DNA of 64,000 nucleotides, taken from Roseomonas sp. (GTDB lineage Bacteria > Pseudomonadota > Alphaproteobacteria > Acetobacterales > Acetobacteraceae). Below the pieces are notes generated by a model. The model saw nothing but the letters and a program-made list of their open reading frames with translations. It did not search any database and was not told the origin of the DNA. Within the stretch, counting starts at the first letter, position 1. Every line of letters starts with the position of its first letter. The translations under genes were made by a program, and so were the position numbers. Shown piece by piece: positions 1 to 7,866 of this stretch. The DNA lies in assembly GCA_020249775.1 (NCBI GenBank), contig JADCFA010000023.1, positions 62,001 through 126,000 of the forward strand. The letters are read 5' to 3'.

Positions 1-720
1 CAGCATATCGGCGATGGAGGCTTCCAGGAACCCGATGGTGATATGGAGCGATGGCGCATCGCCCGATTGCGCCGCCGCTTCATGCATGACGCCGCGCGGC
101 AGGTAAAGCGCATCGCCGGGATGAAGGGTCAGGGCATGCGGCGTGCCGGCGGGGTTTTGCTTATTCGCCCAAGGTGTCGCGCGGCTTGGTAAAGGGAAGG
201 GGATGTCATCCCAAACGCGCCAGGATTTGGCGCCCGATACCTGCATCACCAGCACATCATGCGTATCAAAATGCACCCGGAAGCCCTGCGCGCCGGGGGG
301 CGTCAGATAGATATTTGCCTGCACCGGATGCAGGAAGACCTTTTCGAGCCCTCGGCAGAATTGCGCGAGTGGCGCATGCAATTCGTGGAATTGCGAGACA
401 ACCAGGCTGCCCCCCGCATCATGGCGGGCGAGCAGGCGGGGCAGATCAATGCGGCTGCCCTCTGCCTGCAGATATTCATCAAGCGGAATGGCCGCGCTGC
501 CCTGGCGCCCGCCATCGGCCATGGTCACGCGCGGATGGCGCGCCGCATCCGTGCGCAAAAAGGCATCGAGATCGGCGATGGAAAGCAAGGCAGCGTAACG
601 ATCCGCCGCGCCGCCTGGAAAAAGCCGCCAAGCGGAGCCTTCGCGTAGCGCAAAGACCTGTTCGGGCGTCAGGCCACCAAAGGCCAGGCGCCAGGCGGCT
701 TCGCCCAGGGTTTCGTTCAT
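1..720 (-). CDS. JmjC/cupin-type 2-oxoglutarate oxygenase, C-terminus beyond the window
   Basis: The reading frame is open from an ATG at 720 to the window edge, 240 codons, so the C-terminus is missing. It resembles the cupin_4/JmjC ribosomal-oxygenase group, Fe(II)/2-oxoglutarate hydroxylases that modify protein side chains. The iron triad is visible as HFD in HFDTHD (His150, Asp152) and His213 in PRGVMHEA, with beta-strand-rich sequence between. The region from about residue 125 to 240 is the JmjC barrel. The start lies 8 bases after the stop of the repeat-protein gene upstream, so the two are probably co-transcribed. In known families the substrates are ribosomal proteins or other polypeptides. 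The repeat protein next door is an obvious candidate substrate here, but that is inference. The fold call is firm; the exact substrate class is not. Confidence 0.85.
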   Translation of the reverse strand, partial: MNETLGEAAWRLAFGGLTPEQVFALREGSAWRLFPGGAADRYAALLSIADLDAFLRTDAARHPRVTMADGGRQGSAAIPLDEYLQAEGSRIDLPRLLARHDAGGSLVVSQFHELHAPLAQFCRGLEKVFLHPVQANIYLTPPGAQGFRVHFDTHDVLVMQVSGAKSWRVWDDIPFPLPSRATPWANKQNPAGTPHALTLHPGDALYLPRGVMHEAAAQSGDAPSLHITIGFLEASIADML

Positions 721-728
721 GCCTTGCT

Positions 729-1253
729 TCAGGTGCCGCGACGGCCGCGGCCTGCTTCATCACGCGGGTCTGAATCGGTCATGGCCTTGCGCTGCGTGCC
801 GCGCCCATTGCCGGGACCATCGCCGGGATCGGCATCGGTCAGCCCCGTGCCGCGCCGCGCGCCGCGCCCATTGCCGGGGCCATCGCCGGGATCGGCATCG
901 GTCAGGCCCGTGCCGCGCCTTGTGCCGCGACCATTGCCGGGACCATCACCGGGATCAGCATCATTCAAGCCGGTGCCGCGCCTTGTGCCGCGACCATTGC
1001 CGGGGCCATCGCCGGGGTCGGAATCGGTCAGCCCGGTGCCACGCGGGCGCCCGCGGCCACGCCCGGGCCCGTCCACCGGATCCGCATCCGTGACCACGGG
1101 GATGGCCTTGGGCTGCTGGAGCGGTTCGGCAGAGGCGCTGCGCGCTGCACCCAGAAGGGCAGGGGCCGCCGCCAGGTGCAAGACCAAAAGCCTGCGCCCC
1201 AGGGGGTTTTGCGGCGATTCCGCCAGTGCTTCGTCTTGTTTGCTACTTGGCAT
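729..1253 (-). CDS. Exported tandem-repeat protein (six D-x-D-P/GxGRG units)
   Basis: This 174-residue protein has a long basic N-region, twin arginines (GRRLLVLH), a hydrophobic stretch and an Ala-Ser-Ala site near residue 42, so it looks exported by Tat or Sec. The mature part is almost only repeats: six units of about 21 residues with consensus TDADPGDGPGNGRG followed by TRRGTGL; the last two are shorter. The units carry many Asp, Gly and Arg residues and no Cys. I chose the ATG at 1253 because GAGGGG sits 7 bases before it; the in-frame ATGs at 1268 and 1286 have no such site. The JmjC oxygenase gene follows after 8 bases. Function is unknown. The acidic DxDPxD loops could bind Ca2+, or the repeats could be hydroxylation targets. 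Confidence 0.75.
   Translation of the reverse strand: MPSSKQDEALAESPQNPLGRRLLVLHLAAAPALLGAARSASAEPLQQPKAIPVVTDADPVDGPGRGRGRPRGTGLTDSDPGDGPGNGRGTRRGTGLNDADPGDGPGNGRGTRRGTGLTDADPGDGPGNGRGARRGTGLTDADPGDGPGNGRGTQRKAMTDSDPRDEAGRGRRGT
732..1091 (-). repeat. 63-bp in-frame tandem repeats, six units
   Basis: Units begin near 1091, 1028, 965, 902, 839 and 779 (reading on the minus strand). The first four are exactly 63 bp. The fifth is 60 bp and the sixth is 48 bp and ends at the stop. The internal units are nearly identical at DNA level, which points to recent expansion by slippage or unequal recombination. The period is a multiple of three, so copy number can change without breaking the frame. Confidence 0.9.
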
Positions 1254-1519
1254 CGCTTGGCCCCTCATCTCAGACAGCAAGAACATTTGATGGGATTAAA
1301 CCCGGTGATAATCGCGTGGAAAAGTGAATTTTGATTTATCGTTTTCCGAAGTGAAATCATGGCTCACGGCAAAACGCCTCAACCCCATTCGATGATCAAG
1401 GCAAGCCTGCCGGATGCAAGACAAGCCTCTGCATGACAGCCACATCATGGCGCAGGGGCTTGCCGGAGAAGGCGAGGTTCAACAAAGCAAACCCCGCCAA
1501 GTTTAGTGGGTTTGACCGT

Positions 1520-5213: not shown

Positions 5214-6036
5214 ATTCCTCCTGCCAAGGCGCTTTCACATCATCACGCGGCGGGCGGCCACGCTGCATCCGGCCACGCGATAGCTCCGTCACCACGCCAT
5301 GCAGCGTGCGGAGTTCCTGTTCCGTTACCTCGCCCCGCTGGAACCAATGGCGCAGGTTGCGCACCATGCCTGGGCGCTTTTCCTGATTGTCGAGGAAGCC
5401 TGAAGCATCCAATTCCGCGATCAGCCGACCCAGGAATATGTCCAATTCGCCCTTGGTCGCGACATGGGTTTCATTGGTCATCAGATAGCGCGGCGGCGTT
5501 GCCTCAGCCGTCATCCACCATTCATAGGCGAGGATCATCACCGCCTGGGCGAGGTTGAGCGAGTTATGTTCAGGGTTCAGCGGATAGCGCACCAGCGTAT
5601 CGGCGCGGGCGAGGTCCTCGGCTTCCAGCCCGGCGCGTTCGGGGCCAAATAGCACGGCCACGCGCTGGCCCTTGACGTTGATGGCGCGCAAATCCTCGGC
5701 CGCCGCGCGGGCATCACGCACTGGAATGACCACGTGGCGCGGGCGCGGGCAGGTGGCGAACACACGATGGCAATCGGCTACAGCGGCATCGAGTGTGTCA
5801 AACACCTGCGCCGCATGGATGATGGGATCGGCGCCGGAAGCGGCGGGAAGTGCTTCGGGCTGCGGCCAGCCATCGCGTGGTGCGACGATACGCAAGTGAA
5901 ACAAGCCGCCATTGGCCATGGCGCGGGCGGTGCTGCCGATATTGCGCGCCATTTGCGGGCGCACCAGCACGATGATCGGGCTTTCACCCGGTGGCGGCGT
6001 GAGTGGCGCCCCCCCTTCACCGCGCCCGCCCGTCAT
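5212..6036 (-). CDS. trmJ: tRNA/rRNA methyltransferase of the TrmJ (SPOUT) family
   Basis: A 274-residue protein that in its family 2'-O-methylates position 32 of tRNAs. The SPOUT knot features are present: RPQMARNIGSTARAMAN near residue 27, VLFGPERAGLE near 130, and YPLNPEHNSLNLAQAVMI near 152. The C-terminal part after about residue 175 is a small helical domain usual for the group. The start ATG overlaps the stop of the DUF305 gene by an ATGA junction, so translation may be coupled. The N-terminal 15 residues are Gly/Pro-rich and may be unstructured. Confidence 0.88.
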   Translation of the reverse strand: MTGGRGEGGAPLTPPPGESPIIVLVRPQMARNIGSTARAMANGGLFHLRIVAPRDGWPQPEALPAASGADPIIHAAQVFDTLDAAVADCHRVFATCPRPRHVVIPVRDARAAAEDLRAINVKGQRVAVLFGPERAGLEAEDLARADTLVRYPLNPEHNSLNLAQAVMILAYEWWMTAEATPPRYLMTNETHVATKGELDIFLGRLIAELDASGFLDNQEKRPGMVRNLRHWFQRGEVTEQELRTLHGVVTELSRGRMQRGRPPRDDVKAPWQEE

Positions 6037-6441: not shown

Positions 6442-7866
6442 TCAAGCGCGTTTCCAGGTGGTGCCAGCGGCACCATCTTCCAGAATGATGCCTTGGGCCT
6501 TCAAGTCATCGCGAATGCGGTCAGCCTCCGCCCAGTTCTTCGCCTTACGAGCGGCAAGCCGTGCGGCGATGGCGGCTTCAATCGCGGCGGCATCATCGCC
6601 GCCACCTTGCAGCCATTGCGCGGGATCGGATTGCGCCAGACCAAGCACGGAAGCCGCTTCCCGGAACGCAGCGATCACCGAGCCGATCTCCGGCGCCTCC
6701 CGCAGCCCCATGCGTTCCAGGACAACATTGGGCGAACCGCCGACCGTCAACGCATTCGCAAGAGTGCGCAAATCACGTAGGCGCGCCAATGCAAGCGGCG
6801 TATTCAAATCATCGCACAGCGGTTCCAGCACCCATTCCGCCATACGCGCGGCGTCATCATCCGTAACCGCCGCACCGGCGCGCGCCAGCATGGCGTAGTG
6901 ATCATCCAACTCCGCCTTGGCTTCATCCAAACCGGCTTCCGTGTAGTCCAGCGATTGGCGGTAATGGGTGCGGAGCAGCAGCAGGCGAAACGCCTCTCCC
7001 GCCCAGGCACCCTTCTTCAAGATATCCCGCACAGTGAGGAAATTGCCGAGGGATTTCGACATCTTCTCCCCATCCACCTGCAGCATGCCATTGTGTATCC
7101 AATAGCGGGCAAAGGTCGCACCGGGGAAAGCGCAAACAGATTGCGCGATTTCGTTTTCATGATGCGGGAAAATCAGATCACTCCCGCCGCCGTGAATATC
7201 AAAACTCTCCCCAAGATGCCTCCAGGACATGGCAGAGCATTCAATATGCCAACCAGGCCGGCCACGGCCCCAGGGGCTGTCCCAGCCAGGTGTCTCCGCA
7301 TCGCTTGGCTTCCACAGCACGAAATCACCGGCATCGCGCTTATAAGGCGCCACATCCACCCGCGCACCGGCGAGCAATTCATCCGGGGAGCGGCCAGAGA
7401 ATTTGCCGTAACTGGAGAAGGACGGGACCGAGAACAGCACATGCCCATCTGCGGCATAGGCATGGCCATTGGCGATCAACCTTTCGATCAGCGTTATCAT
7501 TTCCGCGATATGGCCGGTGGCGCGCGGTTCCACATCGGGCGGCAGCGCGCCAAGGGCGGCCATATCGGCGTGGAAATCCGCCGTCGTGCGCGTGGTGATG
7601 ACGGCAATCGATTCACCGGTTTCACGCGCGCGCGCATTGATCTTGTCATCCACATCCGTGATGTTACGCGCATAGGTCACGCGCGGATAAAGCCGGCGCA
7701 AAATCCGCGCCAGCACATCAAACACCACCACCATGCGCGCATTGCCGAGATGCGCGAGGTCATACACCGTGACCCCGCAGGCGTAGAACTTCACATGCTG
7801 GGGATCGAGCGGTTCAAATCGCCGCTTCTTGCGCGCTGCGAAATCATGCAGAAAAAAATCAACCAT
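6442..7866 (-). CDS. cysS: Cysteinyl-tRNA synthetase
   Basis: A 474-residue class I aminoacyl-tRNA synthetase that charges tRNA-Cys. The HIGH-type motif reads HLGN near residue 40 and the KMSKS loop is intact near residue 270. Zinc ligands are recognisable at the Cys of YACGVTVYD, the Cys of WHIECSAM and the HHENE segment. Length is normal. It begins 3 bases after gltX, so it is the last gene of the gltX-cysS block. A weak hairpin with no T-run lies in the 61 bases before the DUF305 gene. Confidence 0.96.
   Translation of the reverse strand: MVDFFLHDFAARKKRRFEPLDPQHVKFYACGVTVYDLAHLGNARMVVVFDVLARILRRLYPRVTYARNITDVDDKINARARETGESIAVITTRTTADFHADMAALGALPPDVEPRATGHIAEMITLIERLIANGHAYAADGHVLFSVPSFSSYGKFSGRSPDELLAGARVDVAPYKRDAGDFVLWKPSDAETPGWDSPWGRGRPGWHIECSAMSWRHLGESFDIHGGGSDLIFPHHENEIAQSVCAFPGATFARYWIHNGMLQVDGEKMSKSLGNFLTVRDILKKGAWAGEAFRLLLLRTHYRQSLDYTEAGLDEAKAELDDHYAMLARAGAAVTDDDAARMAEWVLEPLCDDLNTPLALARLRDLRTLANALTVGGSPNVVLERMGLREAPEIGSVIAAFREAASVLGLAQSDPAQWLQGGGDDAAAIEAAIAARLAARKAKNWAEADRIRDDLKAQGIILEDGAAGTTWKRA

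Follow-up and report, generated by a model that had tools for sequence, protein, structure and literature searches.

MINA53 and NO66, two Fe(II)/2OG oxygenases of the JmjC_2 type, are highly selective for His, according to the available excerpt of PMC9994133, and the residues R297, Y328 and S421 of NO66 touch the substrate peptide (excerpt of PMC6006756). Their relative YcfD hydroxylates Arg81 of the ribosomal protein uL16 (excerpts of PMC9994133 and PMC6006756). The nearest functional precedent for the locus described here is JmjC-type hydroxylation in biphenomycin-like RiPP clusters, as presented in the excerpt of PMC12257519. The locus in question pairs a JmjC_2 oxygenase gene with a gene for a tandem-repeat protein and lies at the beginning of the window, by which we mean the whole 64-kb stretch of Roseomonas sp. 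DNA that was analysed. Outside the ribosome and the natural-product peptides, substrates are, to our knowledge, established for few bacterial protein hydroxylases.

The window start cuts the oxygenase gene, whose complete form comprises 392 codons (L005:9543-10721). The features of the locus, together with a second repeat gene from the same genome, are the following:

1..720, minus strand: N-terminal 240 of the 392 residues of a JmjC_2 (PF08007) Fe(II)/2OG oxygenase; the gene runs beyond the window start to G000:C16:61542
721..728, no strand: intergenic gap of eight bases, from the repeat-gene stop (729) to the oxygenase ATG (720), read from the sequence
729..1253, minus strand: repeat-protein gene, 174 residues with six units (reading-frame analysis and alignment of ten upstream regions)
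1128..1253, minus strand: n-region and twin-Arg signal-like peptide PLGRRLLVLHLAAAPALLGAARSASA, RR codons at 1196-1191, cleavage site inferred
1029..1091, minus strand: repeat unit 1, TDADPVDGPGRGRGRPRGTGL (translation and tandem-repeat analysis)
966..1028, minus strand: repeat unit 2, TDSDPGDGPGNGRGTRRGTGL (translation and tandem-repeat analysis)
903..965, minus strand: repeat unit 3, NDADPGDGPGNGRGTRRGTGL (translation and tandem-repeat analysis)
840..902, minus strand: repeat unit 4, TDADPGDGPGNGRGARRGTGL (translation and tandem-repeat analysis)
780..839, minus strand: repeat unit 5, TDADPGDGPGNGRGTQRKAM (translation and tandem-repeat analysis)
732..779, minus strand: repeat unit 6, divergent, TDSDPRDEAGRGRRGT (translation)
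1318..1339, minus strand: upstream element ATAAATCAAAATTCACTTTTCC, given on the gene's strand, with an ACTTTT shared upstream of relatives
G000:C16:211098-211598 (L006:7087-7638), plus strand: another member of the same repeat-protein family, encoded in the genome of the window, 183 residues with five units, no oxygenase gene beside it

The sequence-only reading from which this work started had placed the oxygenase gene eight bases past the stop of the repeat gene, and this spacing was confirmed; in related loci the two genes often overlap or nearly touch. The repeat frame is open on the minus strand from 1286 to 729. An alignment of ten upstream regions, one from the window and nine from close relatives, favours the conserved ATG at position 1253, which the same reading had chosen, as the real start of the gene. 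Eight of these ten regions, that of the window included, carry ACTTTT at a similar distance 5' of the start codon (the other seven are L109, L110, L113, L114, L115, L118 and L126; L112 and L117 are without the element), and the stretch at 1318..1339 is a possible promoter or operator.

A linker separates the signal stretch from the units, whose core in the window protein reads T-D-x-D-P-x-D-x-x-G-x-G-R-G. The earlier count of six units stands, but their supposed uniform length of 21 residues holds only for four of them, which are followed by units of 20 and 16 residues. At the DNA level, the array is a 63-bp tandem repeat (4.1 copies, 87% match). Repeat copy number varies among relatives, as had been anticipated: ten of 13 relatives whose JmjC proteins are 84-92% identical have an adjacent repeat gene, and these carry four, five or six DxDPxD motifs. 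The repeat gene is the sole case in the 64-kb window of a frame with at least two DxDPxD motifs, and no such frame was present in the 248,591 bases that lie beyond position 5,300 in 80 related JmjC loci; the repeat ORF is hence not a product of chance. The window protein matched no Pfam or NCBIfam model, a repeat match to PF21009 fell below the cut-off and concerned L246 only, and profiles of the unit found no match among PDB sequences at E 5. Membership in a known Ca2+-binding repeat family was rejected on the absence of Pfam and PDB matches. Neither Pfam nor NCBIfam has a dedicated family for the repeat unit or for the protein.

The oxygenase of the window matches PF08007 with an E-value of 7.5e-25 (87.4 bits, cut-off 22). 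For the subfamily alignment 99 sequences were gathered, one of which (L169) was removed by a length filter. The Fe(II) triad H150, D152 and H213 is identical in all 98 aligned sequences, and so is K165, which we take to be the 2OG-binding Lys. This degree of conservation is what one expects of an active oxygenase and argues against a scheme in which the repeats serve, unmodified, as a fold or metal sink and have the JmjC protein as their chaperone or sensor. Binding of Ca2+ or Fe by Asp-rich D-x-D-x-x-D loops might do without modification and would fit that scheme, which we nevertheless regard as very improbable. Profile searches of the PDB returned NO66 (4.9e-32), MINA53 (3.0e-30) and, far behind, YcfD (6.5e-8). 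Of the three NO66 contacts R297, Y328 and S421, the subfamily retains only the Tyr; R297 and S421 align with Val/Ile107 and Gly230 (residue numbers counted by hand). Five other bacterial JmjC proteins that we compared also have a Gly at the S421 position, so that this exchange counts against His as the target residue and does not separate Arg from Asp. We assign the enzyme to a JmjC_2 subfamily for which no substrate has been described.

A scan of one genome per species with the JmjC alignment gave 242 relatives, the best 80 of which were kept. At 72 of these best 80 of 242 loci, a repeat ORF with at least two DxDPxD motifs lies upstream of the JmjC gene on the same strand, often accompanied by one or two more repeat genes in tandem; at none of the 80 does one lie elsewhere in the stretch inspected (up to 4 kb on each side, or as far as the contig reached). 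From the end of the nearest repeat gene to the JmjC match, the spacing runs from an overlap of 7 bases to a gap of 231 bases at 71 of the 72 loci, and the gap is 1,057 bases at the remaining one (L134). As for the eight unlinked loci, a genome search detected repeat proteins elsewhere in all eight genomes, and the JmjC tree places the loci in three groups (L116, L119 and L120; L139, L140, L143 and L152; L153), which implies about three losses of linkage, the partner being retained in each case. The pair is also present at five metagenome-bin loci (three labelled Phreatobacter, one Hyphomicrobiales and one Proteobacteria isolate PHREA1). Four of these branch among Acetobacteraceae on the JmjC tree, L169 not being part of the tree, which suggests either joint transfer of the two genes or errors of binning.

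At three loci (L242, L288 and L313) the oxygenase gene comes first, so that gene order has changed and adjacency has been kept. All-against-all BLAST of 27 neighbourhoods revealed no gene besides the pair that is common to nearly all of them, and a larger gene cluster was rejected on this ground; the genes surrounding the pair differ between loci. Three genes recur at about nine loci and are absent from that of the window genome. Judged by size, they are presumably tricarboxylate-transporter genes, and we regard their presence as chance synteny.

Of 200 genomes sampled from the family to which the window belongs, 29 contain repeats and 27 give strong JmjC matches (E 6.1e-44 or better), all 27 being among those 29. 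Both genes thus occur in 27 genomes, repeats only in two, and a strong JmjC match without repeats in none (Fisher's exact test, p about 2e-31, kinship ignored). Since the first look of these searches scored at most 16 repeat and 9 JmjC candidates in each genome, some genes may have been missed. By their positions, the two genes are neighbours in 26 of these 27 genomes, the exception being G005. Two further genomes (G091 and G016) have distant JmjC matches only (31-33% identical) and no repeat match. The two genomes with repeats and no oxygenase match are G177 (78% complete), in which the contig ends inside a repeat gene and the neighbour is not visible, and G106 (97% complete), in which a contig ends 315 bases past one repeat gene and those 315 bases contain no oxygenase start; we treat G106 as an apparent exception to co-occurrence.

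Beyond the family, a two-unit profile (A2) detected repeats in eight of 385 class genomes and in four of 299 genomes of a phylum sample, all four from the same class, and a profile built from a long unit type (A3) did so in ten of 372 class genomes. Taken together, A2 and A3 found repeats in 11 genomes from six families. A JmjC profile (A4) matched 45 of 359 class genomes, 12 of them at 305 bits or more, with the next score at 174.5. All 11 repeat-positive genomes are among these 12 carriers of the subfamily, and an adjacent oxygenase and repeat gene is present in each of the 11, several of which carry unlinked repeat paralogues as well. The 33 genomes with weaker JmjC matches only, all of them within the A2 sample of 385, gave no repeat match, and the twelfth subfamily genome (G407) has the oxygenase and no detectable repeat protein. 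In one family (f16), nine of 17 genomes contain the JmjC subfamily, with ten genes in all; an adjacent repeat gene is seen at seven of these ten loci and, truncated by the start of the contig, at an eighth (G865), and at the other two (G863 and G866) the partner is unlinked and repeats are encoded elsewhere in the genome. Many repeat paralogues sit away from the oxygenase; like G407, G106 and the two unlinked f16 loci, they weigh against a two-gene system. One such paralogue, the 183-residue protein of the window's own genome, may be modified by the window's oxygenase as well.

Conservation of the pairing, by which the sequence-only reading had proposed beforehand to be judged, is very strong across many genera, and so is co-occurrence; the 72 of the best 80 of 242 loci and the 27 family genomes support its suggestion that a dedicated oxygenase and a repeat substrate form a pair. 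This genomic association directs the search for a substrate to the repeat protein, and we judge it probable that the repeats are the substrate of the oxygenase. The best PDB relatives are ribosomal oxygenases, which would fit an enzyme that acts on some other substrate, such as a ribosomal protein, and shares no more than a transcript with the repeat gene. This is improbable, given that co-occurrence is specific to the JmjC subfamily and persists in genomes with unlinked genes, and that adjacency is kept despite changed gene order and differing neighbours.

Several other loci came to light in the course of these searches. A phage or plasmid origin of the pair was rejected, as a search of PHROGs gave no match and plasmid matches were to distant relatives only (44 of 53 records in Streptomyces). 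Just upstream of one such distant oxygenase relative, on the Streptomyces virginiae plasmid NZ_CP108091.1, there is a 45-codon ORF (L247:3755-3892) that is a possible small-peptide partner. At G088:C1:1560484-1561639 (L061, L065), the paired oxygenase is found in two overlapping frames, the result of a frameshift or an assembly error. The window's own genome encodes another JmjC_2 protein on contig C10 (L108:5612-6820), and directly downstream (6817-7245) a small signal-bearing OmpA-domain protein (PF00691, 44.9 bits); a similar arrangement was seen, by eye only, at L074 (6092-7318 with 7135-7737) and L064 (1117-2355 with 695-1297). A JmjC_2 enzyme and an OmpA-domain protein may thus make up a second enzyme-partner pair.

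The loci yielded 153 distinct repeat-protein frames, and in 149 of them a hydrophobic stretch comes after a twin Arg. Pattern matching assigns a lipobox to 44 of the 149, an AxA-type site to 95 and neither to ten. The signal of the window's clade reads LGRRLLVLRLA, which we take to differ from the classical Tat motif; relatives in other families have a SRRSFL or SRRSFV signal. Of seven related repeat proteins compared with the curated model TIGR01409 (TAT_signal_seq), L239 scored 18.1 against a cut-off of 16.7, three scored below the cut-off and three were unmatched, and the window protein gave no match to the curated Tat signal model. The proposed export through Tat is thus supported through the relatives, one of them above the curated cut-off, and not by the window protein's own, non-canonical signal; the window protein is probably exported, and by Tat. 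Modification by a cytoplasmic, 2OG-using enzyme would have to come before export along such a post-translational route. One repeat protein that is unlinked to an oxygenase gene (L251:1096-1938, minus strand; G354:C63) bears a C-terminal peptidoglycan-binding domain (PF01471, PG_binding_1; 67 bits). In some families a motif resembling L-S/T-D-D-D-I was noticed by eye N-terminal to the twin Arg (L286, L287, L288, L308, L311, L313, L314, L251, L260, L242 and L086). This LxDDDI-like motif could be a recognition element for the oxygenase.

A precursor-like repeat gene beside a modifying enzyme is also what one finds in a multicore RiPP system, in which the modified repeats would be cut into small secreted peptides. 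JmjC-type hydroxylases do act in biphenomycin-type RiPP clusters (PMC12257519, in excerpt), and the LxDDDI-like motif could be accommodated in such a scheme. Among the genes common to the 27 neighbourhoods, however, there is no linked protease or transporter-protease for leader removal, and the export-type signals, the lipobox patterns and the one peptidoglycan-binding domain argue for a stable envelope protein, so that we consider a RiPP system unlikely.

If the repeats are the substrate, the question arises which residue is hydroxylated. His is absent from the window's repeats and was dismissed, and Pro was dismissed as a general target since it is missing from a second, long unit type, T-D-S-D-S-G-x-x-A-D-x-x-G-x-G-R-G, which keeps Asp and Arg. 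Across 667 units selected by the pattern DxD[PS]xD, T, S or N occupies position 0, and G9, G11 and R12 are conserved to 99, 100 and 96% (rounded). With an anchor that does not require Asp, Asp1, Asp3 and Asp6 are present in 98.6, 94.7 and 93.4% of 813 matches, and the 54 matches that do not have all three seem, on inspection by eye, to have slipped in register onto an adjacent unit. At L287 (genome G531), a paired repeat protein (SDYDPNDPIGGGSDTDPVDPIGEGTDYD) has a repeat region without Arg, Lys or His, and the triad of the adjoining oxygenase is intact; a second oxygenase of G531 adjoins Arg-containing repeats (L314).

Asp is near-invariant and the paired L287 array is free of Arg, and Asp therefore appears the likelier target. 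It is also the simplest one common to all arrays, in view of L287 and of the long type, which keeps Asp and not Pro. We give this assignment a little better than an even chance. An array without Arg was met with once, and where a genome has two oxygenases, these may not share the same specificity; moreover, the targets of the nearest relatives with solved structures are a ribosomal His (NO66, MINA53) or Arg (YcfD) and not Asp, which counts against the Asp reading. The same pair might instead hydroxylate the Arg of the GxGRG tail to C-3 hydroxyarginine, in the manner of YcfD and uL16. Besides this JmjC_2 precedent, the conservation of Arg at position 12 is compatible with such a target, all the more as 31 of the 32 units without it in a second count of 779 have an Arg a few residues further on. 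Yet Arg is less constant than the Asp residues and is lacking from the L287 array, and the profile score of YcfD is far below that of NO66; we hold Arg to be a possible but doubtful target.

Judged from these genomic patterns, it is probable that the two genes constitute a system in which the oxygenase hydroxylates the repeats of its neighbour in the cytoplasm before their export to the envelope. The JmjC_2 oxygenase would modify the tandem T-D-x-D-P-x-D-x-x-G-x-G-R-G units at many sites, the modified protein would then leave the cytoplasm, probably by Tat, and it would work in the cell envelope in a soluble, lipid-anchored or wall-bound form. The product would be an envelope repeat that binds a metal or has been altered in some other way. 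The most far-reaching version of this proposal, a JmjC aspartyl hydroxylase that generates D-x-D-P-x-D loops modified at multiple sites and thereby exported, hydroxyaspartate-rich, metal-binding envelope proteins in at least six families of the Alphaproteobacteria, and hence a new residue specificity for JmjC_2, is put forward tentatively.

Our literature search, which reached few subscription papers and no preprints, found no description of the pair, and the pair looks like an undescribed protein-modification system of the Alphaproteobacteria. Genomics alone provides a whole enzyme subfamily with a candidate substrate that has repeated sites, and this makes the substrate question directly testable. 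Should Asp be the target, one more amino acid would be added to JmjC_2 chemistry, and a bacterial counterpart to the hydroxylated Asp/Asn modules of animal extracellular proteins would be suggested. EGF-type modules hydroxylated by AspH are linked to Ca2+.

Compared with NO66 and MINA53, the enzyme has the same JmjC_2 domain (PF08007), HxD...H triad and YLTPPxxQGF motif and is of similar size, whereas those two hydroxylate a His of a ribosomal protein and the partner here is a probably exported repeat protein without His in the window's repeats, and the NO66 contacts R297 and S421 are replaced by Val/Ile and Gly. With YcfD/RoxA, the uL16 Arg81 hydroxylase, it has in common that both are bacterial JmjC_2 proteins, YcfD/RoxA being a protein hydroxylase; their similarity is weak (6.5e-8), the substrate of YcfD/RoxA is a ribosomal protein, and the excerpts of PMC9994133 and PMC6006756 make no mention of a repeat partner for it. 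BpmG and PbsQ of the biphenomycin-like RiPP clusters likewise combine a JmjC or cupin-like enzyme with a genetically linked ribosomal peptide, but there a single ornithine is involved in a multi-enzyme cluster with a protease (PMC12257519, in excerpt), whereas the pair described here consists of two genes, with tandem repeats, an export signal and no shared protease found. AspH, the aspartyl/asparaginyl beta-hydroxylase, resembles the proposed system in the C-3 hydroxylation of Asp/Asn in repeated modules, namely EGF domains (excerpt of PMC9994133); it belongs to a different enzyme family and is located in the ER, so that the likeness is one of functional analogy only.
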